Shown: positions 9,860 through 33,646 of the stretch, in pieces
Layout of the letters: the number at the start of each line of letters is the position of its first letter
How positions within the stretch are numbered: position 1 is the stretch's first letter
NCBI GenBank assembly: GCA_947630575.1
Contig: CANRIB010000009.1
Coordinates: 1-39,685 of the forward strand
Direction of reading: 5' to 3'
From: an uncultured Bacilli bacterium
GTDB taxonomy: Bacteria > Bacillota_I > Bacilli_A > RF39 > UBA660
Length of the DNA: 39,685 bases
Program-made: the position numbers and the translations under genes
The notes under the pieces: generated by a model
What the model was told of the DNA's origin: nothing
Seen by the model: the letters and a program-made list of their open reading frames with translations, nothing else
Databases searched by the model: none

Positions 9860-11149
9860 TTATTTTTTAGTTTGTCCTAAAGCCCATGTGAATACATTGT
9901 CGTTTGGAAATGAGCTTTGGGCGCCAGCATGATTGGTACCTGCATAAGAATATTTAGCATTTCCACCACTTTGATTGATACTATTTACAAAATTACTCAT
10001 ACAAGATATATACGTACTTTCTTGGTTTCCTGACATTGCCCAAATAGGGGTATTTGTATATTTACTGATATCTGAATATATTGGGCAACCACTTACAGGA
10101 ACTGCGGCTGAAAAAAAGTTGGGATTTTGGTAGACATAATTCCAAACGTCAACACCACCGAGAGAAAAACCCATAATAATTATTTTGTTTTTATTTATTT
10201 TGTATGTTGAAACAGTAGTATTAATAATGTTCATAATTTTAGATTGGATATCTTTCCAGTAAGTATAATTACTAGGAAGAACTGGGGCAATAAAAATGAA
10301 TTTACCATTTTTAAAAGCTTGATTTGATGTTACAAAAGTAACGGGTTTTAAATTCATAACTTGAGCTAATTTTCCTTTTTCACTAGTTCCATGTAAAAAT
10401 ATAATTAATGGTAAATTACTACTAGCATTTTCGGGAACAGTTTCGATGTAGCTTATTCCTCCTAAAGTTTTGGTGTTGGTTCCAGAACTTACATTGAGAT
10501 TAGTTGAAGGATTCTGGCTTTCAGAAGTATTGGAATCTGTATTTGGCTGTGAATTAGAACTTTCAGTAGGCTTTTGTGTTTGAGCAGGCTTTTTATATTC
10601 AAACTTTTTTACAACGCATTCATTGGGATGTAATATACAATCAGTACATACTTTAAATTGAGAACCTTTATAAGTATCGTTATAATCTATAACATTTACT
10701 ATAAAATCAACAATGGCAGGAACAAAGAATATAGCTATTCCGGCGATAGAACGTATTGCTAATGATTTTGCTGCTTTTTTTATTTCGTCATCTTTACTGG
10801 CAATCATTGCTTTACCAAAATCGATACAACCAAAAACAACAATAACTATGGGTATTACAACTTTTAAAATAAATAATATCCATCCCATAGCTCTAAAAAT
10901 TCGACTTACTTCTGCTCGATTGCAAAATGTTTTAGTATCAAAACCTTCAGTTTCAGTTGTGCTATCAGTTGTTTCATCACTATTACTAAAACCTCCACCT
11001 CTATCAGTGCTATCTCCAAAGCCATTAGCTAATAATATCGTTTTATCATTATCCTGATATAAATGGTTGTCTATTTTGTAAGCAGTAACTGTATTTGGAA
11101 ATAATAAACAAGTAAGAAAAATAAATAATATATATTTTAAGCCTTTCAT
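9860..11149 (-). CDS. Secreted/membrane fusion: signal peptide + VirB2/TrbC-like two-TM hairpin + C-terminal alpha/beta-hydrolase (esterase-like)
   Basis: Signal peptide MKGLKYILFIFLTCLLFPNTVTA; hairpin WILFILKVVIPIVIVVFGCIDFGKAMIASKDDEIKKAAKSLAIRSIAGIAIFFVPAIVDFIV; linker rich in Ser/Thr/Asn; esterase domain with IIFLHGTSEKG, GFSLGGVDVW (GxSxG) and NHAGAQS. Confidence 0.8.
   Translation of the reverse strand: MKGLKYILFIFLTCLLFPNTVTAYKIDNHLYQDNDKTILLANGFGDSTDRGGGFSNSDETTDSTTETEGFDTKTFCNRAEVSRIFRAMGWILFILKVVIPIVIVVFGCIDFGKAMIASKDDEIKKAAKSLAIRSIAGIAIFFVPAIVDFIVNVIDYNDTYKGSQFKVCTDCILHPNECVVKKFEYKKPAQTQKPTESSNSQPNTDSNTSESQNPSTNLNVSSGTNTKTLGGISYIETVPENASSNLPLIIFLHGTSEKGKLAQVMNLKPVTFVTSNQAFKNGKFIFIAPVLPSNYTYWKDIQSKIMNIINTTVSTYKINKNKIIIMGFSLGGVDVWNYVYQNPNFFSAAVPVSGCPIYSDISKYTNTPIWAMSGNQESTYISCMSNFVNSINQSGGNAKYSYAGTNHAGAQSSFPNDNVFTWALGQTKK
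10617..11053 (-). repeat. Left arm of a 437-bp inverted repeat flanking murC
   Basis: Reverse complement aligns by eye to 12859-13295 without gaps and with about 5 mismatches. Confidence 0.92.
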
Positions 11150-11229: not shown

Positions 11230-12609
11230 TTAGGCTTTTTCTTTTAAAAGAATTTGAGCAACTTTATTAATTGGACCAGCACCAATGGTTAAGATTAAAT
11301 CATTTTCTTTGATGTGTTCTTTTAAATAATTAGCTATTTCTTGATAGGTAGGAATATGAATAACATTAGGATTTTCTTTTTTTATCAAGTCTACTAAATC
11401 ATCTTCTTTGACGTTCCAAATATTAGTTTCTCTAGCAGGGTAAATATCACAAATAATTACATGGTCAAATTTGGCTAAAATATTAGCAAAATCTTCTAAA
11501 TGTTCTTTGGTACGACTGTAAGTGTGAGATTGGAAAATGGCCCAAGTTTCATTATGATTTATACTTTTAGAAGAATTATAAGTTGTAGTAATTTCAGTTG
11601 GATGGTGAGCAAAATCATCAAATAAATGGGCTTTTTTATATTCACCTAAATATTCAAAACGACGACCTACACCTGTAAAATCTTTTAAAGCTTTTTTAAT
11701 AGGTTCTTTTTCAATGTTGTAGTTTAGGGCAATACTGATAGCTGCTAGAGCATCTAAAATGTTGTGTTTGCCACGGACACTTAAAGTAATAGTATCATAG
11801 TAGACATTGTCAATATACACATCAAAAGTTGGAAAACCTAGGTCAGAATAGGAAATGTTACAAGCTTTTACTTTAGCTTTTTCATTATCAATACCAAATG
11901 TTGTAAGGTTTACAGAGGTATTTAATAATTCTTGAGTGTTATTATCATCGATATTAACTATTAAATAGCCATTTGAAGGTAATAGTTCGGTGTATTTTTT
12001 AAATGATTTTTTGGTATTTTCGATGTTTTTGAAATAATCTAAATGGTCATTATCAATATTTAAGATTATTTCGCTTGTAGGGTGAAAATGGAGAAAAGAA
12101 TCAACATATTCACAAGCTTCTAAAATAAAATATTTTTTATCGCCGATGTAGTAATTGCCATTTATTTTTTTTAGAGAAGCACCAATTTGAATAGTAGGAT
12201 TTAAGTTTGCTTCTAAAAATACGGACGCTACCATACTAGTAGTGGTGCTTTTACCATGAGTTCCACTTATACATATTAGATTTTCATAATCTTTGGTATA
12301 TTCTCCTAAAAATGGAGCTCTTTCAATCGCTTCAATATTATGTTCTTTGGCATAAATTAATTCGGGGTCGTCATTTTTAACGGCGGCAGTATAAATGATT
12401 AAATCAACATTTTTTAATAAATTTAAATCATGACCAATGGCGATTTTAATACCTAAACTTTTTAAATATTCGGTGTTTAGAGATTCATTTAAATCGCTTC
12501 CTGTAATATTTTTGCCATCATTTTTAAGCATGGCGGCGATGCAGTACATGCTTGCTCCACCAATACCAATTAAATGAATGTTTTGATAATCCTTTAAATT
12601 TCTTTTCAT
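11230..12609 (-). CDS. murC: UDP-N-acetylmuramate--L-alanine ligase
   Basis: HLIGIGGASMYCIAAML, ICISGTHGKSTTTSM, DDFAHHPTEI, FQSHTYSRTKE. Confidence 0.96.
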   Translation of the reverse strand: MKRNLKDYQNIHLIGIGGASMYCIAAMLKNDGKNITGSDLNESLNTEYLKSLGIKIAIGHDLNLLKNVDLIIYTAAVKNDDPELIYAKEHNIEAIERAPFLGEYTKDYENLICISGTHGKSTTTSMVASVFLEANLNPTIQIGASLKKINGNYYIGDKKYFILEACEYVDSFLHFHPTSEIILNIDNDHLDYFKNIENTKKSFKKYTELLPSNGYLIVNIDDNNTQELLNTSVNLTTFGIDNEKAKVKACNISYSDLGFPTFDVYIDNVYYDTITLSVRGKHNILDALAAISIALNYNIEKEPIKKALKDFTGVGRRFEYLGEYKKAHLFDDFAHHPTEITTTYNSSKSINHNETWAIFQSHTYSRTKEHLEDFANILAKFDHVIICDIYPARETNIWNVKEDDLVDLIKKENPNVIHIPTYQEIANYLKEHIKENDLILTIGAGPINKVAQILLKEKA

Positions 12610-12756
12610 AAATGCACCTCTTAATTTATTATATTATATAACTAAAAAGTTAGAATAATCAATAAAAAATGGTTTTTATCTAGTATTTTATATTAAAGTT
12701 TGCTATAATGATTATGGTTGATTTTAAAAATTTTTGGAGATATTTGGGAGGAGTTT

Positions 12757-13311
12757 ATGAAGAGTTTAAAATATTTATTAGTAATAATTTTAACTTGGTT
12801 CTTATTTGTGAATACAACAAAAGCGGAAATTAATTATGATAATATTTTAAATTTCAATGATAATGATAAAACGATATTATTAGCTAATGGCTTTGGAGAT
12901 GGTACTGATAGAGGTGGAGGTTTTAGTAATAGTGATGAAACAACTGACAGCACAACTGAAACTGAAGGTTTTGATACTAAAACATTTTGCAATCGAGCAG
13001 AAGTAAGTCGAATTTTTAGAGCTATGGGATGGATATTATTTATTTTAAAAGTTGTAATACCCATAGTTATTGTTGTTTTTGGTTGTATCGATTTTGGTAA
13101 AGCAATGATTGCCAGTAAAGATGACGAAATAAAAAAAGCAGCAAAATCATTAGCAATACGTTCTATCGCCGGAATAGCTATATTCTTTGTTCCTGCCATT
13201 GTTGATTTTATAGTAAATGTTATAGATTATAATGATACTTATAAAGGTTCCCAATTTAAAGTATGTACTGATTGTATATTACATCCCAATGAATGTATAG
13301 TAAAGGATTGA
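12757..13311 (+). CDS. VirB2/TrbC-like small membrane protein (signal peptide + two-TM hairpin)
   Basis: Start trimmed to MKSLKYLLVIILTWFLFVNTTKA; hairpin identical to that of the 9860-11149 product. Confidence 0.7.
   Translation: MKSLKYLLVIILTWFLFVNTTKAEINYDNILNFNDNDKTILLANGFGDGTDRGGGFSNSDETTDSTTETEGFDTKTFCNRAEVSRIFRAMGWILFILKVVIPIVIVVFGCIDFGKAMIASKDDEIKKAAKSLAIRSIAGIAIFFVPAIVDFIVNVIDYNDTYKGSQFKVCTDCILHPNECIVKD
12859..13295 (+). repeat. Right arm of the 437-bp inverted repeat flanking murC
   Basis: See 10617-11053. Confidence 0.92.
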
Positions 13312-13316
13312 TAAAT

Positions 13317-14519
13317 ATGAAAAATAAATTATTATTGCTTTTGTTAGTGATATCAAGTTTTTGTTTTTTTCCTAAAGATATATTTGCAGTTGATTATAGT
13401 AAATTAAAAAAAGATGAAAGCGGTAATTATAGTGTTAATAACGCTGTATGTTATTATAATGTTAAAAATACTGAAGAATATCCCGACATAGGAATTTTAG
13501 TTCCGTCTGTTACTATTAAGTTTAAAAATGAGAAGTTAAGTAGTTTTGAGGGGAATACAGGAGCTTATAAAATTTATGCTGGTAGTGTTAGTTATACCCA
13601 TTTTTTTAGTAATAAAGAATTTAAATGTAAAGATGTTCTTGGCTTAAGGTTTGCAAGAATGCCTGATTTGAGTAGAGATAAGCATGGGCAAAATTATTAT
13701 GTTGATTTAGCTACTTGTGATAGTGCTGATTGTTATAAATTAGTATTAGATAAGTCAAAGTCGAAAGTTGTCTACAATGAATTAAAAGAAGGAGAAACTA
13801 ATTCAAGTGTTACGGGAAAATCTGTTTGTTCTTTTACTAAAACTTCAAGTAATTCTAGTGGCTCTAATGATCAAAAAAATTCTCCTTCGAAATTGAATTA
13901 TACAGAATATAGTGATGGAACGTCTGCTTTTGTTACTGAGGATAATGTTAAAGTTCCCATAAGTTCTGGCAGTATTAGTGATTGTTCTACTACTGAAACA
14001 TTATATTTAAAAATGCATATTGTGGGAGATAAGTTAAATAGTTATAGTATAGTTAATAGTTGTAATGAAAATTTTAGTACTGATTGTGTTGTTTATCTTC
14101 GTAGTAATATAACTTATAGTAGTGTCGATTCAGGAATTAAAGAAGATGGAAGTAGTTCAAATGAAAGTACTTCTAGTACACCTAGCGAGGTAGGCTCTAT
14201 ACTGGATTTTAGTATGGAAAATGAAGAAGAATGTAGTAGTTATTTAGGAAGTATAGCTAAATCAACAGATCCCGCTTATTATTTGCATTTTGCATTTAAT
14301 TTAATGAAGTATGCTGCTATATTAATTCTTTTTGCTTTAACTGTTGTTGACTTTTTTCAATCGGCTACTAGCGATAAAGAAGATTCAATAAAAAAGGCTT
14401 TTTATAAAGCAATAAAGAGATTGATTATAGTTGTAATTATTTTCTTTATTCCGATTATAGTGGAATTTATATTTGAGTTATTTGGAATTATAACTGATCC
14501 TAGTTGCTTGACAAAATAA
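13317..14519 (+). CDS. Secreted Cys-containing protein with C-terminal two-TM VirB2-like hairpin, T4SS-like cluster
   Basis: Signal peptide MKNKLLLLLLVISSFCFFPKDIFA; C-terminal hairpin MKYAAILILFALTVVDFFQSATSDKEDSIKKAFYKAIKRLIIVVIIFFIPIIVEFIF. Confidence 0.65.
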   Translation: MKNKLLLLLLVISSFCFFPKDIFAVDYSKLKKDESGNYSVNNAVCYYNVKNTEEYPDIGILVPSVTIKFKNEKLSSFEGNTGAYKIYAGSVSYTHFFSNKEFKCKDVLGLRFARMPDLSRDKHGQNYYVDLATCDSADCYKLVLDKSKSKVVYNELKEGETNSSVTGKSVCSFTKTSSNSSGSNDQKNSPSKLNYTEYSDGTSAFVTEDNVKVPISSGSISDCSTTETLYLKMHIVGDKLNSYSIVNSCNENFSTDCVVYLRSNITYSSVDSGIKEDGSSSNESTSSTPSEVGSILDFSMENEEECSSYLGSIAKSTDPAYYLHFAFNLMKYAAILILFALTVVDFFQSATSDKEDSIKKAFYKAIKRLIIVVIIFFIPIIVEFIFELFGIITDPSCLTK

Positions 14520-14529
14520 ATAGGAGGTA

Positions 14530-16854
14530 ATGTGTATGCTAATGGCTTTTGATTTTTTTAATATAGGAGAATCAATTAAAGAATTTTTTATAGGAGTATT
14601 GTTAAATTTGGATGCTATAATATATTCTTTAATTAGTTGGGTTTATAAAGTTATACTAGCTTTATGTGGTAGTAGTTCTAATATTTTTAATGATACTGAG
14701 GCAATAAATACTTTTATTAGTAGAGTATATGTCATTATTGGAATTGTAATGATGTTTATGTTAGCATACTCTTTATTGAGATCTTTAGTTAATCCTGATG
14801 AGATTACTAAAGGAAAGCAATCTCCAGTGGCGATAATTAAAAATGTTGTAATTTCAATTGCTCTAATTGCGTTTGTTCCAACAATATTTGAATTTGCTTA
14901 TGGTTTTCAAAATGCTATACTTTCTCAAAATACAATTGGTAAAATTGTTTTAGGCTCTAATTCTAATGGGAGTGGAGAAGATAGTGGAACAATTATTGAT
15001 GAAGGTGGAAGTCGTATAGGAGCTACCTTGTTAGGAGGTTTTTTGCATCCTAATCTTAGTGAAGATGGTTGTAGTTATGAAGGTGGAGAATATAATTGTC
15101 CAAATATAAAAGTAGAAGGTTATGAAAGTTTTAATGATTTTTGGGATGATGTAGAAACAACTGGAGATTATTTTGCTTTGGCACAATTAAAAAGTGCAGT
15201 TGTAGATGGTAGTGTAAGTTATTTATGGTTATTTAGTAGTTTAGCGGGTATATTTTCTTTATTTGTATTAATTGGCTATTGTTTTGATATTGCTTTGCGA
15301 GTAATAAAATTGGCTGTGTGTGAGCTTATTGCTCCAATTCCTATTTTATGTAGGGTTGCTCCAGGAGATCAGGGTGGAAAAGTTTTTTCTAATTGGCTTA
15401 AAGCAACTGTTTCAATATATATAGAAGTTTTTATGAGGCTTGCGGTGTTATTTTTTGCAATTTGGATTATGGATATAGTTGTTAAAAATTTTGGTAGTAT
15501 TATATCTATTGATGGAACAATGGATGTTTCAGTATTTTTAGTAGCGCAGGTTTTAATATTTTTGGGTATTATTATGTTTATACAGCAAGCACCAAATATA
15601 ATTAAAGAAATTACTGGTCTTGATAGTGGGAAATTTAATCCTTTGAAGACTTTTAAACAAGGGTTAGGTTTTGTTGCAGGTGGACTTGCAGGAAGAAGTT
15701 TAATGGCAGGCATGAGAGCTTATAATGAATTAGGTGAGGCAAAAAACTTATTGGATTTTAATGCAATTGGTAATCAGTATAAAAGGAGACAAGCTGCAAT
15801 TGCTGCAAAAGAATTACAAGAAAATGCTGGATTAAATAGAAGTCAAAGGTTTAGTATGAATGCTCAGAATGGAGTGCGTAAGGCTTTTGGCTTTGGAACA
15901 TTAAAAGAACAGGCAGATAGAAATATTGAACATGGAATAGGAATTGATGGTTCTGCAATGACTGTCCAAAATGATACAGGAGAAAATATTGTTTTAAGAG
16001 ATGCTGATGGTAATGTTGTAAGAACTTTAGTTGCTGGTGCACAATATGATGTAGATGATGCTTTGATAGGTCAATTGCAACATCAAAAAGATTTGAATAA
16101 AATTAATGTTTCTAGAGCAGATGAAACTATTCGTCAAATAAAAGAAAATCAGGATTTAAATAAGAGATTTATTGATTTAAGGAGTCAAATTAAAAGTGAA
16201 GCTTTAGATAAAATTGCTGAAGGAGATTCGGCGATTGTTGATACTATAACAGATCATACGGGAAAAGCTATAGCTGGAAATTATAAGACTTTAATGGATT
16301 ATGTTCAAAGTAGAAGAGATAATGGGGCTAGTACTGCGGAGATGGCTCGATTGAATGCTGAGTTAAAGGCCGCTCAAGATAGAATGTGGGTTAAATATGC
16401 TGATGGCGAGATAGCTAGGGGTGACTCTACAAAAATCGGTTCTTTATTCCGTCAGGCTAGGGATTTTCATGATCGTGTTGGTGGAGTTTATGATGCTGCG
16501 ACTGGTACAGTTGAAAGAGTGGATTCACATACTTATACTTTTAGTGATGGTAAAGGTGGTACAATAACAAGAACTTTAGATATGGATTCTATGGAATTTT
16601 TTGAGGGAGCTAGAGATATTAGTGGAACAAGAATTAATGGAGCAGATGGCTCTGCTAAATCTTCAAATTCTTTGTTAGATATTCAAGCTGCACAAGAAGA
16701 GTCAGTTAAATCAACTATTGCTACGGAAACAACTCGAATTGATCGTGTATTGAATCAATTTGAAGAGGGAAAAGCTACAGAAAAAACTTCTGCAAGATAT
16801 CAAGCATATAAAGCGGCAGATGATGCTAGTAAATTAACGGGAGATAAAAAATAG
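14530..16854 (+). CDS. VirB6/TrbL-like polytopic membrane protein with long hydrophilic C-terminal tail
   Basis: Multiple TM segments in residues ~1-380 including IALRVIKLAVCELIAPIPILCRV and ATVSIYIEVFMRLAVLFFAIWIMD; soluble, helix-prone tail after ~400. Confidence 0.65.
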   Translation: MCMLMAFDFFNIGESIKEFFIGVLLNLDAIIYSLISWVYKVILALCGSSSNIFNDTEAINTFISRVYVIIGIVMMFMLAYSLLRSLVNPDEITKGKQSPVAIIKNVVISIALIAFVPTIFEFAYGFQNAILSQNTIGKIVLGSNSNGSGEDSGTIIDEGGSRIGATLLGGFLHPNLSEDGCSYEGGEYNCPNIKVEGYESFNDFWDDVETTGDYFALAQLKSAVVDGSVSYLWLFSSLAGIFSLFVLIGYCFDIALRVIKLAVCELIAPIPILCRVAPGDQGGKVFSNWLKATVSIYIEVFMRLAVLFFAIWIMDIVVKNFGSIISIDGTMDVSVFLVAQVLIFLGIIMFIQQAPNIIKEITGLDSGKFNPLKTFKQGLGFVAGGLAGRSLMAGMRAYNELGEAKNLLDFNAIGNQYKRRQAAIAAKELQENAGLNRSQRFSMNAQNGVRKAFGFGTLKEQADRNIEHGIGIDGSAMTVQNDTGENIVLRDADGNVVRTLVAGAQYDVDDALIGQLQHQKDLNKINVSRADETIRQIKENQDLNKRFIDLRSQIKSEALDKIAEGDSAIVDTITDHTGKAIAGNYKTLMDYVQSRRDNGASTAEMARLNAELKAAQDRMWVKYADGEIARGDSTKIGSLFRQARDFHDRVGGVYDAATGTVERVDSHTYTFSDGKGGTITRTLDMDSMEFFEGARDISGTRINGADGSAKSSNSLLDIQAAQEESVKSTIATETTRIDRVLNQFEEGKATEKTSARYQAYKAADDASKLTGDKK

Positions 16855-16868
16855 AAAGTGAAGTAATT

Positions 16869-17693
16869 ATGAGTTTATTGGGAGATTTATTTAGAAAACA
16901 ATTTGGATTTCCTTTGAAACAGGAAAGTTATGATCATAAAATCAATAATTATCGTGTTAGTGATAAAATTAATGTAGAGCATTCTATTGCTGATAGAAAT
17001 GTGGCAATTTCTTTTGTAAGCGAACAAATTAGACAAATTAAAGTTATAATAGATGATAATCAATTTTTTGTAGATTCATACAATTTGATAAAAAATGCAG
17101 CTATAGACAAAGTTCGAGAGGGGGATTGCCCTTTACAAGAAACTATATATAAAATTGATGGATTGCCTTTTATTACTGCTAATTTAAAGACTATAAACGA
17201 TTATTTTTGCGTTGTTAAAAGCAATTGTAAGGATTATATGGAATTACAGAATTATAATTTGCAAATGTCTAAAGCTTTAGAAACTATTTGGCAAAGATAT
17301 GCTAATAATGTTATAAATAATAAAGGTGAGTTTAGATTTGGCACTTTTTTTGATACAGAATATAGTATTTATACTGCTTATATGCAAATTAAGAATTCTT
17401 TAAGTTTTGGTAAATTAAAAGATTGTAATAGAAAAACTATTTCTCTATCATCAAATAATTTGGAATTAGTAATACAGGCTTCAAAATTAGCTGAAGAGTG
17501 TAATAATATATTGTATGTATTATTACAGGATTTGAATAGTGAATTAAGTATATTAAATGATAATCAAGCTTCTGATGAATATGTTTTACAAGTTATAGAC
17601 AACACTAAAAAAATGATGAGTTCTACTATGGAATATTTAAAAGCGAAAAAAAACAAAGAATTTATTGAAACGCATTTTAAGAAAAAAATATAA
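16869..17693 (+). CDS. Hypothetical soluble protein, apparent paralog of the VirB6-like protein's C-terminal tail
   Basis: ORF follows 14 nt after the VirB6-like gene; shares IRQI(K), EGD, a T(I/M)(N)DY segment and (R/W)YA(D/N) pattern with that tail. Confidence 0.6.
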   Translation: MSLLGDLFRKQFGFPLKQESYDHKINNYRVSDKINVEHSIADRNVAISFVSEQIRQIKVIIDDNQFFVDSYNLIKNAAIDKVREGDCPLQETIYKIDGLPFITANLKTINDYFCVVKSNCKDYMELQNYNLQMSKALETIWQRYANNVINNKGEFRFGTFFDTEYSIYTAYMQIKNSLSFGKLKDCNRKTISLSSNNLELVIQASKLAEECNNILYVLLQDLNSELSILNDNQASDEYVLQVIDNTKKMMSSTMEYLKAKKNKEFIETHFKKKI

Positions 17694-17884
17694 AAATTTT
17701 GTTTTTAGTATACTAAAATAATGAGTAATGAAGAAACTAAGTATTATTATGCTTTGCTTTATATAAAGAGTTAAATAATATTTTTTATAAAAGAAATTGA
17801 AGATTTAGAAAGATACATGATGGCTATTAATTTAGTTTATTCTTTTTTTAGCAAATGAATATACAAGATTAAATCAAGTTAGAT

Positions 17885-17922
17885 AAAGATGTTTAGATAA
17901 ATTGGATATAACATCTTTTTTA
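17885..17922 (+). terminator. Probable intrinsic terminator downstream of the T4SS-like cluster
   Basis: AAAGATGTT / AACATCTTT 9-bp stem followed by T-run. Confidence 0.6.
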
Positions 17923-18175
17923 TTTTCATTATAAGTAAATTTGTTTTATTCAGTTCTTATTTTTTAAAAATTTTGTGTTTTAATTTTATAAATCTAAAAA
18001 GTATGATATAATTATAAATAAGAACATAATTAAAGGAAAGTTTTCAATAAACAATTAAGATTGTACATAAATGATTATGGAATTAGTAGATAGGGAGCGT
18101 GTAATTATTAAATTAAAAAAAATTTACTAACCTTTTAATTATTTTTGACACTATATTTATGAAAGGTGATTATTT

Positions 18176-18646
18176 ATGGATGTAGTTTATGATAAGTATT
18201 TTGATAAAATTTATTCTTGGGCAATAAAAAAGACCAATAATAAAGAAGATGCAGAAGATTTAACAAATAATGTTTTCTTGGCTATATTTGAATATTTTAA
18301 TAAAAATATTCAGATTGAGAAATTGGATAATTTAATATGGAAAATAGCTCATAATATTTGGTATTTAAAAGTTAAGAATTATATCAGGGAGAAAGATAAT
18401 GTTTCTTTAGATAAAGCTAATACTAGTTATAGTGAAAATTATTTAGATAAAATAATTTATAAAGAGATAATTGATAATCTTGATGATATTGGTTTAACTA
18501 CTAAAGAATATTTATCATTTAAATTATATTATTGTAATGACCTTTCAATAAAAGAAATAAGTTATAAGTTAAATTCTAGTGAAAGTAATATTAAATATTA
18601 TTTATATAGCGCTAGATGTAAAGTAAAGGAGAGATATAATGAATAA
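18176..18646 (+). CDS. ECF-like RNA polymerase sigma-70 family factor
   Basis: Region 2-like YFDKIYSWAIKKTNNKEDAEDLTNNVFLAIF; region 4-like LSIKEISYKLNSSESNIKYYLYSARCKVKERY. Confidence 0.85.
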   Translation: MDVVYDKYFDKIYSWAIKKTNNKEDAEDLTNNVFLAIFEYFNKNIQIEKLDNLIWKIAHNIWYLKVKNYIREKDNVSLDKANTSYSENYLDKIIYKEIIDNLDDIGLTTKEYLSFKLYYCNDLSIKEISYKLNSSESNIKYYLYSARCKVKERYNE

Positions 18647-19328
18647 CTTAAAATTAGATAACTATTTAGAAATAGTAAATCAAGAAAAACTAAAGAAAGG
18701 ATTAGAAGATTATACACCACTTTATCCGATGTTAAGAGTGAAAGACAATAATCTTTATATTGGAGTGTTACTTACTAAAAATAATGCTAATGTTTGGGAT
18801 AAAGATAGTAATATTAAACCAGAATATTGGGTGTTAATTGATCCAAGTAATAACCAAATAATAGAATTTAATGAAACTGCTAAAAATGATTTTGTAATTG
18901 GGAAATTAATTTCTAAAGATGTAGAAAATAAACAAAAAGAAATATCTAAATATGCAGTAGAAAAGACTATGCAATATAAAGAATATCTAATGAATGATAT
19001 TAAAAATGATGAGCTTCCAATTCAAAAGAAATTAGCAAGTATTTTAAATAATGAAATAATAATTGATGGTGAAAAAGTAAATATTAATGATTATTTAATG
19101 GCTAATATAGAAAAAGATATAGTAGATAAAGTAAAAGAATTAGTTGATTTATTAGTAGCTTCTAAATATAATTCTATAACTTTCTATTATGATGCTTTAT
19201 TTAATGATATAGTAAATAATTATAAAAATAACAATGGAATAGATAAAGAAAAAATGGCTTTATGTGTAGAGATAATGAATAATTATTATGATGGGGTAAT
19301 AGGTATAGATAATTTCTTTAATACTTAA
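18639..19328 (+). CDS. Hypothetical protein, translationally coupled to the sigma factor
   Basis: 229-aa ORF overlapping the sigma-factor stop by 8 nt; no obvious TM segment. Confidence 0.6.
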   Translation: MNNLKLDNYLEIVNQEKLKKGLEDYTPLYPMLRVKDNNLYIGVLLTKNNANVWDKDSNIKPEYWVLIDPSNNQIIEFNETAKNDFVIGKLISKDVENKQKEISKYAVEKTMQYKEYLMNDIKNDELPIQKKLASILNNEIIIDGEKVNINDYLMANIEKDIVDKVKELVDLLVASKYNSITFYYDALFNDIVNNYKNNNGIDKEKMALCVEIMNNYYDGVIGIDNFFNT

Positions 19329-31795: not shown

Positions 31796-33646
31796 ATGGA
31801 AAAGAATAAAAGAGTATTGATAGTATTGGGAATATTAATCGTAGGGATAGGAATATCTTTAGCCTATTTTGTAGGAAAAATGTTAACAGGAGGAGAAGGA
31901 GCAACAACAAAAGTATTAACAGCCAATATTAAGAATTCCGAAGTAACTATAGAGGGAATATTAAATATAGAAGATTATGATATGTTACCAGGACATCAAA
32001 GTGCTTCAGGAATAAAAGTAAATGCAAAAGGAAATAATGAATTAATCCCATTTAATATAATATGGGAAGGAACAAATACTTTAGGTAGTAAATTAAAGTT
32101 TAAAGTATATAAATCAAGTAAACAATTAAATGTAGATATAAAATGTAATGAAGTAAGAAAACCAACAGGAGGAGGAACAATGCTATATGAAGAGTGTAGC
32201 ATAAATAGTGAAGAAGAATTAGGAGAAGTAATACAAGAAGGAGAAATACCAATAAGTGAAGTATCAGAAAAAGTAAATATAGCATTAGACCAATTTATAA
32301 CATCAACAGAAGAACCTGGAACGGATATATATTACTATGTGATAATTGAATATCCAAATGAAGATAAGATTCAAAATGACGATATGTTAGATAAATCATT
32401 TAAAGGAGAGTTAAAAATAGAAGCATCAGAAACAGAGGCAGATGTAAATATATTTGCAGCATATATAGAACAAGAAGATGGGAGTTATGAGAAAGTAGAA
32501 GATATACCTCAAGAAGGATATACAATAAACAAAGATAAGAGTAAATGTAGTAATGGAGCAATACCAAATTGGGATATATCAAATAAAAGATTATATATAG
32601 ATAATTTTAAGAAAATAGGAACAGAATGTTATTTGTATTTTGAAAAAGAACCTGCTAAGGATATTATCTTAATGGAGAGAAGTATAAATGAAATTCAAAT
32701 TCCATTTACGGGTCCAGATAAAATAGAACATAAGACAACTAACAATAAATCTGATTTATATATAAGTGAAGATGATTTAGGAAATACTTATTACTTTAGA
32801 GGAATAGTAAATGATAATTGGATTAAATTTGGGCAAACAATAGAAGGAAAAGATTTATACTGGAGAATTATCAGAATAAATGGAAATGGCTCAATTAGGA
32901 TTATTTATAACGGAACAAGTACTGAGGCAACAGGTTCAAATACGCAGTTATCATCTACGAGTGCATTTAATTCAGATAGTGGAGATAATATGTATGTAGG
33001 ATATATGTACGGAAGTAGTTCTGATGATTACACAACAACTCATGCTAATGATAATAAAAGTACAATTTTAAAAGAGCTAGAAAGATGGTTTGTTGAAGAT
33101 ACGAATTTAGATGACTTAGTGGGATTATTAGATAAAGAAGCAGGATTTTGTAATGATAGAGAAGTAAAAAAAGTAGGAAGTTATTATACAGGAAATGGAA
33201 CCGGTACATTAAATACATCTTATGCGCCATATGTAAGATTAACTAATGGAAGTAATTGGGATAATCAAACACCAACTTTTAAATGTAGTCAAAATAATGA
33301 TAATTTCACAGTAGTAGGAAGTTCGAATGGTAATCAAAAATTAACTTATCCAGTAGGACTTATAACTAGTGATGAAGTAGTATATGCTGGAGGCACTGGA
33401 GGAAGTACAGTAGGTATATCTAATACTAGTTATTATTTATATACAGGGGAATATTATTGGACAATGTCTCCATGTCATTTTGATACTGTTTCTTCAGATA
33501 TGTTCTTTGTTGATATAAATGGAAATGTAAATGGTCATCGTGTACTTTACTCTCGTGGCGTTAGACCTGTAATAAATCTCTCTGCTAATATAAAATTATC
33601 AGGTGATGGAACATATACTAATCCATATGTAGTAGAAAATACTTGA
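31796..33646 (+). CDS. Large membrane-anchored surface protein with C-terminal lectin-like/DUF6273-like domain
   Basis: N-terminal TM anchor RVLIVLGILIVGIGISLAYFVGKML; C-terminus YYWTMSPCHFDTVSSDMFFVDINGNV...SRGVRPVINLSANI. Confidence 0.6.
   Translation: MEKNKRVLIVLGILIVGIGISLAYFVGKMLTGGEGATTKVLTANIKNSEVTIEGILNIEDYDMLPGHQSASGIKVNAKGNNELIPFNIIWEGTNTLGSKLKFKVYKSSKQLNVDIKCNEVRKPTGGGTMLYEECSINSEEELGEVIQEGEIPISEVSEKVNIALDQFITSTEEPGTDIYYYVIIEYPNEDKIQNDDMLDKSFKGELKIEASETEADVNIFAAYIEQEDGSYEKVEDIPQEGYTINKDKSKCSNGAIPNWDISNKRLYIDNFKKIGTECYLYFEKEPAKDIILMERSINEIQIPFTGPDKIEHKTTNNKSDLYISEDDLGNTYYFRGIVNDNWIKFGQTIEGKDLYWRIIRINGNGSIRIIYNGTSTEATGSNTQLSSTSAFNSDSGDNMYVGYMYGSSSDDYTTTHANDNKSTILKELERWFVEDTNLDDLVGLLDKEAGFCNDREVKKVGSYYTGNGTGTLNTSYAPYVRLTNGSNWDNQTPTFKCSQNNDNFTVVGSSNGNQKLTYPVGLITSDEVVYAGGTGGSTVGISNTSYYLYTGEYYWTMSPCHFDTVSSDMFFVDINGNVNGHRVLYSRGVRPVINLSANIKLSGDGTYTNPYVVENT

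Follow-up and report, generated by a model that had tools for sequence, protein, structure and literature searches.

A murC-linked gene cluster in an uncultured Bacilli genome encodes pilins and the channel protein of a chromosomal type IV secretion system

Introduction

Four consecutive genes in the genome of an uncultured Bacilli bacterium raise the question of what a set of membrane proteins resembling those of type IV secretion systems (T4SS) is doing next to murC, a housekeeping gene. Neither these genes nor those directly flanking them encode an ATPase, relaxase or integrase. They lie in a stretch of 39,685 nucleotides (the window) of a reduced genome of 1.3 Mb. A first-pass annotation of the window left the choice between a domesticated complex for export or envelope functions and a channel with its motor encoded elsewhere. 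The genus includes Candidatus Caccenecus avistercoris (contig DVJF01000035.1), a genus that we take to be placed in RF39/UBA660. On the basis of structural identification, we firmly assign to the cluster the pilins and channel of a T4SS whose motors are encoded elsewhere in the chromosome, and the whole is probably a machine for cell-to-cell contact rather than a mobile element.

The pilin and channel module

All four open reading frames of the first-pass annotation are present on the forward strand (Table 1). The best starts are ATG 12757 for pilin 1, ATG 13317 for pilin 2 and ATG 14536 for VirB6 (GGAGG upstream).

Table 1. Features of the murC locus in the window and motor genes on other contigs (C1, C24) of the same genome.
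Feature	Position	Strand	Description
Hairpin pilin-esterase	9860..11149	-	429 aa; esterase / PHB-depolymerase-like domain at the C-terminal side
Inverted repeat, left arm	10608..11053	-	hairpin-coding part of the pilin-esterase gene; nucleotide alignment
murC	11230..12609	-	housekeeping; flanked by the two pilin copies; keeps its place beside the cluster in most genus relatives
Putative exchanged cassette	12734..18113		diverged from sister species G019; flanks 80-92% identical
Pilin 1	12757..13311	+	184 aa; signal peptide, then VirB2-type two-helix hairpin with charged cytoplasmic loop
Inverted repeat, right arm	12859..13304	+	within pilin 1
Pilin 2	13317..14519	+	400 aa; signal peptide, hypervariable ectodomain of ~300 aa, C-terminal VirB2-type hairpin
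VirB6 channel protein	14536..16854	+	772 aa; polytopic core (1-360), long soluble hypervariable tail
Gene 5	16869..17693	+	274 aa; free-standing paralogue of the VirB6 tail
VirB4 ATPase	C24:13955-15736		594 aa; NF045975 1.4e-104
VirB4 N-terminal half	C24, upstream of the 594-aa ATPase		202 aa; NF045975 2.3e-12
VirB3 (PrgI-like)	C24, with the split VirB4		PF12666 E=1.7e-4, 22.5 bits, under the cut-off of 27
VirD4 coupling protein	C1:39817-42180		adjoins uppS; NF045973 2.4e-86, 290 bits against a cut-off of 250

Common to pilins 1 and 2 is a hairpin made of two long helices with a short charged loop between them. In the AF2 model of pilin 1 these helices span residues 82-119 and 123-158, and the hairpin profile finds pilin 2 at E=1.4e-27. 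When searched alone, the pilins of the window match PF18895 (T4SS_pilin) only below threshold (E 0.04-0.5), while 51 of the 110 hairpin pilins of the family match it at E<=0.01 (best 2.3e-7) and four match T4SS_CagC. A fold search with the pilin model gave no informative match, a two-helix hairpin being too simple, and weak rhodopsin/7TM matches of the pilins were set aside as membrane-helix noise.

The first-pass annotation had overlooked a second pilin copy across murC, which is fused to an esterase. Its hairpin is found by the profile at E=5e-42, the enzyme part matches NF050058 (E=2.7e-11), TIGR01840 (E=2e-7) and, over the cut-off, Esterase PF00756, and the translation carries a GFSLGG nucleophile motif. 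The genome encodes five hairpin proteins: three at the murC locus, one on contig C3 and one on C38. The C3 protein (about 118 aa) is located directly 3′ of a TadC-like gene, and the C38 protein (L157, G000:C38:5416-6465) has an N-terminal hairpin ahead of a cysteine peptidase domain of the C39 type (C39_2). Enzyme-type and other domains recur among the 101 pilins scanned, namely Amidase_3 (4), Peptidase_M15_4 (2), a VgrG3-like C-terminal domain (2), C39_2 (2) and esterase (2), and one pilin (L116) has M15_4 and Amidase_3 (sub-threshold) ahead of its hairpin. The L157 gene sits between parB-like and other housekeeping genes. We also observed that antisense frames over the pilin hairpin, at 12834-13199 (-) and 10713-11057 (+) of the window, are artefacts of the hairpin sequence, and that such frames in the ORF lists had masked the true pilin at the Tad locus on C3.

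The product of 14536-16854 matches NF045890, a model of a pLS20 conjugation membrane protein, at E=7e-8, which is under the curated cut-off of that model. Its AF2 model (pLDDT 84) was compared with known structures using Foldseek, and the nine best PDB matches were all R388 TrwI/VirB6 chains, with probabilities of 0.97-1.00 (top matches at E 1.7e-3, probability 1.00). The predicted structure thus firmly supports its identity as VirB6. TrbL PF04610 was tried as a marker of the VirB6 family and had no match in this genome; NF045890 and structure were used instead. The VirB2/TrbC-like and VirB6/TrbL-like assignments of the first-pass annotation therefore hold, the former through the PF18895 matches of the family hairpins and the latter through both profile and structure. 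The fourth gene, in contrast, had been described as encoding a separate soluble protein. Gene 5 joins the VirB6 tails in an iterated profile search (E=2e-69) and the alignment concurs, so that its sequence identifies it as a copy of the VirB6 tail in stand-alone form.

Of the genus genomes, 34/36 have VirB6, as do 45/54 of those sampled across the family, a retention which shows that the cluster is not a product of chance. Outside the family, a class-wide survey found it weakly in 5 of 341 genomes. This contrast does not fit the sporadic distribution of a mobile element. No match to VirB6 was found among 72,556 plasmids.

Motor genes and the operon in relatives

A genome-wide search for VirB4 and VirD4 homologues located both motors outside the window, along with VirB3 (Table 1). 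VirB4 is split over two genes, and its best NCBIfam model is that of a mycoplasma ICE VirB4. VirB3 stands before VirB4 in nearly all loci. In most of the genus relatives examined, VirB3 and VirB4 are found directly 3′ of VirB6 and its neighbour beside murC; in the window's genome this pair has been relocated away from the murC cluster and the T4SS parts are spread over several loci. The suggestion of a channel with its motor elsewhere was thus borne out, whereas a domesticated ATPase-free or envelope-only complex is not supported, since VirB3, VirB4 and VirD4 are all present in the genome and VirB3-VirB4 directly follow in most of those relatives. The neighbourhood survey also bore out conservation beside murC, which adjoins pilin 1 in relatives.

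VirB4 occurs in 34/36 genus genomes at about 91-96% identity (in two of these in split pieces) and VirD4 in 35/36 at 79-90%, while plasmid VirB4 is only about 28% identical. VirB4 is better conserved across the genus than MurC: mean pairwise identities are 93% for VirB4C, 86% for VirB4N, 75% for VirB3 and 73% for MurC. They are 55-58% for the hairpins, 52% for the VirB6 core, 30% for gene 5, 27% for the VirB6 tail and 26-30% for the pilin ectodomains (26% for that of pilin 2). The sister species G019 yielded no VirB4, and G011 only a distantly related one; some species may thus be able to do without the machine, or its genes may be missing from these assemblies. The sampled neighbours of VirB4 and VirD4 in the window's genome are not conjugation genes. 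The contig of VirB4 also encodes a collagen-like surface protein, with collagen repeats and a BclA_C domain (L036:10798-12198, G000:C24). Paralogous proteins of 480-670 aa with a DUF6273-type match are encoded at 31796-33646 of the window and at L037:11061-14517, one pair being just downstream of VirD4.

Other genera in this family unite the parts in a single operon, with Tad genes first, then X348, from one to six hairpin pilins, VirB6, VirB3, the two VirB4 genes (VirB4N, then VirB4C), a peptidoglycan hydrolase, X289 and finally VirD4. We surveyed 59 loci outside the genus, with counts made on 43 or 44 of them. VirB6 and the hairpin pilins were each upstream of VirB4 in 42/44, a hydrolase-type gene and VirD4 were downstream in 38/43 and 36/43, respectively, and Tad/X348 genes were present in 25/44. 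The Tad genes were identified by matches to T2SSE (3.9e-28) and RcpC/CpaB (2e-6) and by the position and topology of two platform-like proteins. The hydrolases of these operons are of SpoIID, M23 plus phage lysozyme, and C39 types. A T4SS-linked peptidoglycan hydrolase was sought in the window's own genome and none was identified; X901, beside VirD4, proved to be unrelated to the SpoIID protein. As candidates for VirB8, X206/X289 have a VirB8-like topology but do not match a VirB8 profile.

A genome-wide search with PF03432, which covered relaxases of the MOBP/MOBQ type, found none of them in the window's genome. PF03432 was found in 9/36 genus genomes, where further copies of VirB4/VirD4, with identities of about 30-40% or lower, point to separate elements. 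As the first-pass annotation had stated, no ICE of the ordinary kind surrounds the cluster. Judging from its sequence conservation, the machine is probably not an ICE and has been inherited vertically throughout the family.

Inverted repeat and cassette exchange at murC

The hairpin-coding regions of the pilin-esterase and pilin 1 genes form an inverted repeat of 446 nt with 98% identity, including more than 300 identical nt, which flanks murC. Outside it, the signal-peptide regions and promoters of the two pilin copies are those of clearly diverged paralogues. In G019 the pilin-esterase is conserved at the same place and a separate pilin 1 is absent. We read the repeat as a duplication whose similarity has been maintained by gene conversion. 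Through such conversion, the pilin with the enzyme would continue to fit the resident pilin and VirB6, a hint of co-assembly. We also considered an invertible murC switch that would swap promoters between the two pilins. However, the orientation of murC relative to the T4SS genes is the same in all relatives seen and gene conversion explains the homogeneity of the repeat, so that inversion is unsupported.

When we compared the DNA of the window with that of G019, we found 80-84% identity up to position 12733 and 86-92% from 18114 onward, while between these positions only scattered pieces of 68-74% identity could be aligned. For this pair, MurC identity ranks at the 99th percentile among genus pairs and that of the VirB6 core at the 55th. 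The comparison indicates that the block beside murC was replaced as a cassette between conserved flanks, the less likely alternative being very fast divergence. Across the genus, VirB6 divergence tracks that of VirB4N (r=0.63) better than that of MurC (r=0.21). Directly 3′ of the cassette, an ECF sigma factor and a partner ORF (18176-19328 of the window) have 83-86% identity in G019, and the sigma factor is a possible candidate for a cassette regulator.

Proposed function and rival explanations

The explanation that we favour, with moderate confidence, is a vertically inherited, relaxase-free T4SS of a monoderm with a role that depends on contact with neighbouring bacteria. A contact-dependent use appears the most likely because no PF03432 relaxase was found, VirD4 has been kept, the operon of relatives includes hydrolases and Tad genes, and the surface parts are variable. 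VirB4 and VirB3, with VirB6, would pull hairpin pilins from the membrane and build a fibre or a short surface structure, the peptidoglycan hydrolase would breach the wall and the Tad pilus would aid attachment. Pilins with large ectodomains or with enzymes (esterase, C39 peptidase, amidase or carboxypeptidase, differing by species) would be displayed outside, where they could bind or cut, while VirD4 would pass a substrate, protein or DNA, into VirB6. By analogy with the T4SS pilin array of epibiotic Patescibacteria, contact could allow the cells to attach, to penetrate a wall, to transfer macromolecules or to capture nutrients. On this view, the range of partners, escape from phages or the existence of compatibility groups would lie behind the cassette exchange and the hypervariability of surface and tail parts. 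A more tentative idea is that of a hybrid Tad-pilus/T4SS with interchangeable enzyme-bearing pilins, by which RF39 cells would attach to, breach and draw material from their neighbours; if true, the contact-dependent lifestyle known from Patescibacteria would also have originated in Bacillota. Many biosynthetic pathways are missing in RF39 (PMC6784871); the Tad genes, wall hydrolases and pilins with enzymes that the operon encodes would give it a concrete and testable supply route through cell-to-cell contact.

The machine could instead exchange chromosomal DNA between related cells without a relaxase, importing or exporting it in the manner of Ced in archaea or ComB in Helicobacter while the Tad pilus makes contact. 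A conserved VirD4 of the DNA-pump type where no relaxase was found, the match of the CedD profile to VirB4 (1.9e-11), the frequent exchange of the murC cassette as a sign of active recombination, and ComEC as a sign of competence-type DNA handling all speak for it. We nevertheless consider it unlikely: DNA uptake has an ordinary route in ComEC and a further full T2SSE ATPase and does not call for the T4SS, and neither the enzyme-bearing pilins nor the hypervariable VirB6 tails would be explained. Moreover, ComB lacks VirD4 (PMC12857230). That the genes produce only antigenically variable surface fibres, a pilus or adhesin that translocates nothing, would account for the hypervariable ectodomains and multiple pilin paralogues, and Bartonella Trw, which likewise has several variable VirB2 paralogues and pili proposed to be antigenically variable, offers a precedent. 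Yet Trw belongs to a diderm and, according to the same review, is without VirD4, which here is retained in all but one of the genus genomes beside pilins with enzyme domains, and we regard a purely adhesive role as improbable.

Similarly improbable is a domesticated or parasitised conjugation apparatus that would transfer the IMEs or ICEs of some strains, with relaxases acting in trans. The PF03432 matches in a quarter of the genus genomes and the proximity of VirB4 to the mycoplasma ICE model would agree with it, but most genomes bearing the machine have no PF03432 relaxase, those with one own separate VirB4/VirD4 genes, and the vertical conservation exceeds the level of MurC. An ordinary ICE remnant decaying in the chromosome might be suspected from the scattered genes and the reduced genome. 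We give this almost no credence, given the intact ORFs, the retention of each part after dispersal, the conservation of the parts across genus and family, and the lack of a nearby integrase or relaxase.

Comparison with known systems

The closest parallel to the contact machine proposed here is found in Patescibacteria (Saccharimonadia), for which chromosomal T4SSs with VirB2 arrays are described in PMC12102498 and reviewed in PMC12857230. According to that 2025 review, survival as an epibiont requires the pilin array, Gram-positive T4SSs are without VirB2 pilins, Patescibacteria excepted, and nearly all their known functions are one-way DNA transfer. Within what these sources describe, both systems are chromosomal in a genome-reduced monoderm, mostly without relaxase, and combine VirB3, VirB4, VirB6 and VirD4 with arrays of divergent PF18895/VirB2-like pilins. 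Against the same descriptions, ours differs by its Bacillota host, split VirB4, VirB6-tail paralogue and loci scattered in the genus, as well as by the operon joined to Tad genes and by pilins with large ectodomains or fused enzymes. A pilin-bearing T4SS in which a relaxase was not found, near-universal in a large uncultured family of gut Bacilli, would be the second monoderm case; as far as its sequences tell, this is a second monoderm lineage with VirB2 pilins, and one with new features.

The T4SSs of the MPF-FATA type (pLS20, the CD1110/CD1115 ICEs, mycoplasma ICE) share homologues of VirB4, VirD4, VirB3 (PrgI) and VirB6 (NF045890), and they have a peptidoglycan-hydrolase component, as do the operons of related genera here. 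Unlike the present system, these ICEs and plasmids are mobile, carry relaxases and have no VirB2 pilins (PMC12102498, PMC12857230); the distance of plasmid VirB4 and the lack of a plasmid match for VirB6 also set them apart. Our literature search, with a coverage that misses most subscription journals, did not find this system described in RF39/UBA660.

The genes adjoining the T4SS resemble Tad/Flp loci in having a TadA-type ATPase, two TadB/TadC-like platform proteins, RcpC/CpaB and prepilin-like small proteins. We know of no Tad locus that is operonic with a T4SS, and a literature search on such a pairing brought up no relevant paper. A second, canonical-looking Flp/Tad locus (L150, G000:C4:20001-34000) encodes a Flp pilin and TadE-like, ParA/TadZ-like, TadA, TadB and TadC proteins, and X348 is found a few genes upstream of it.
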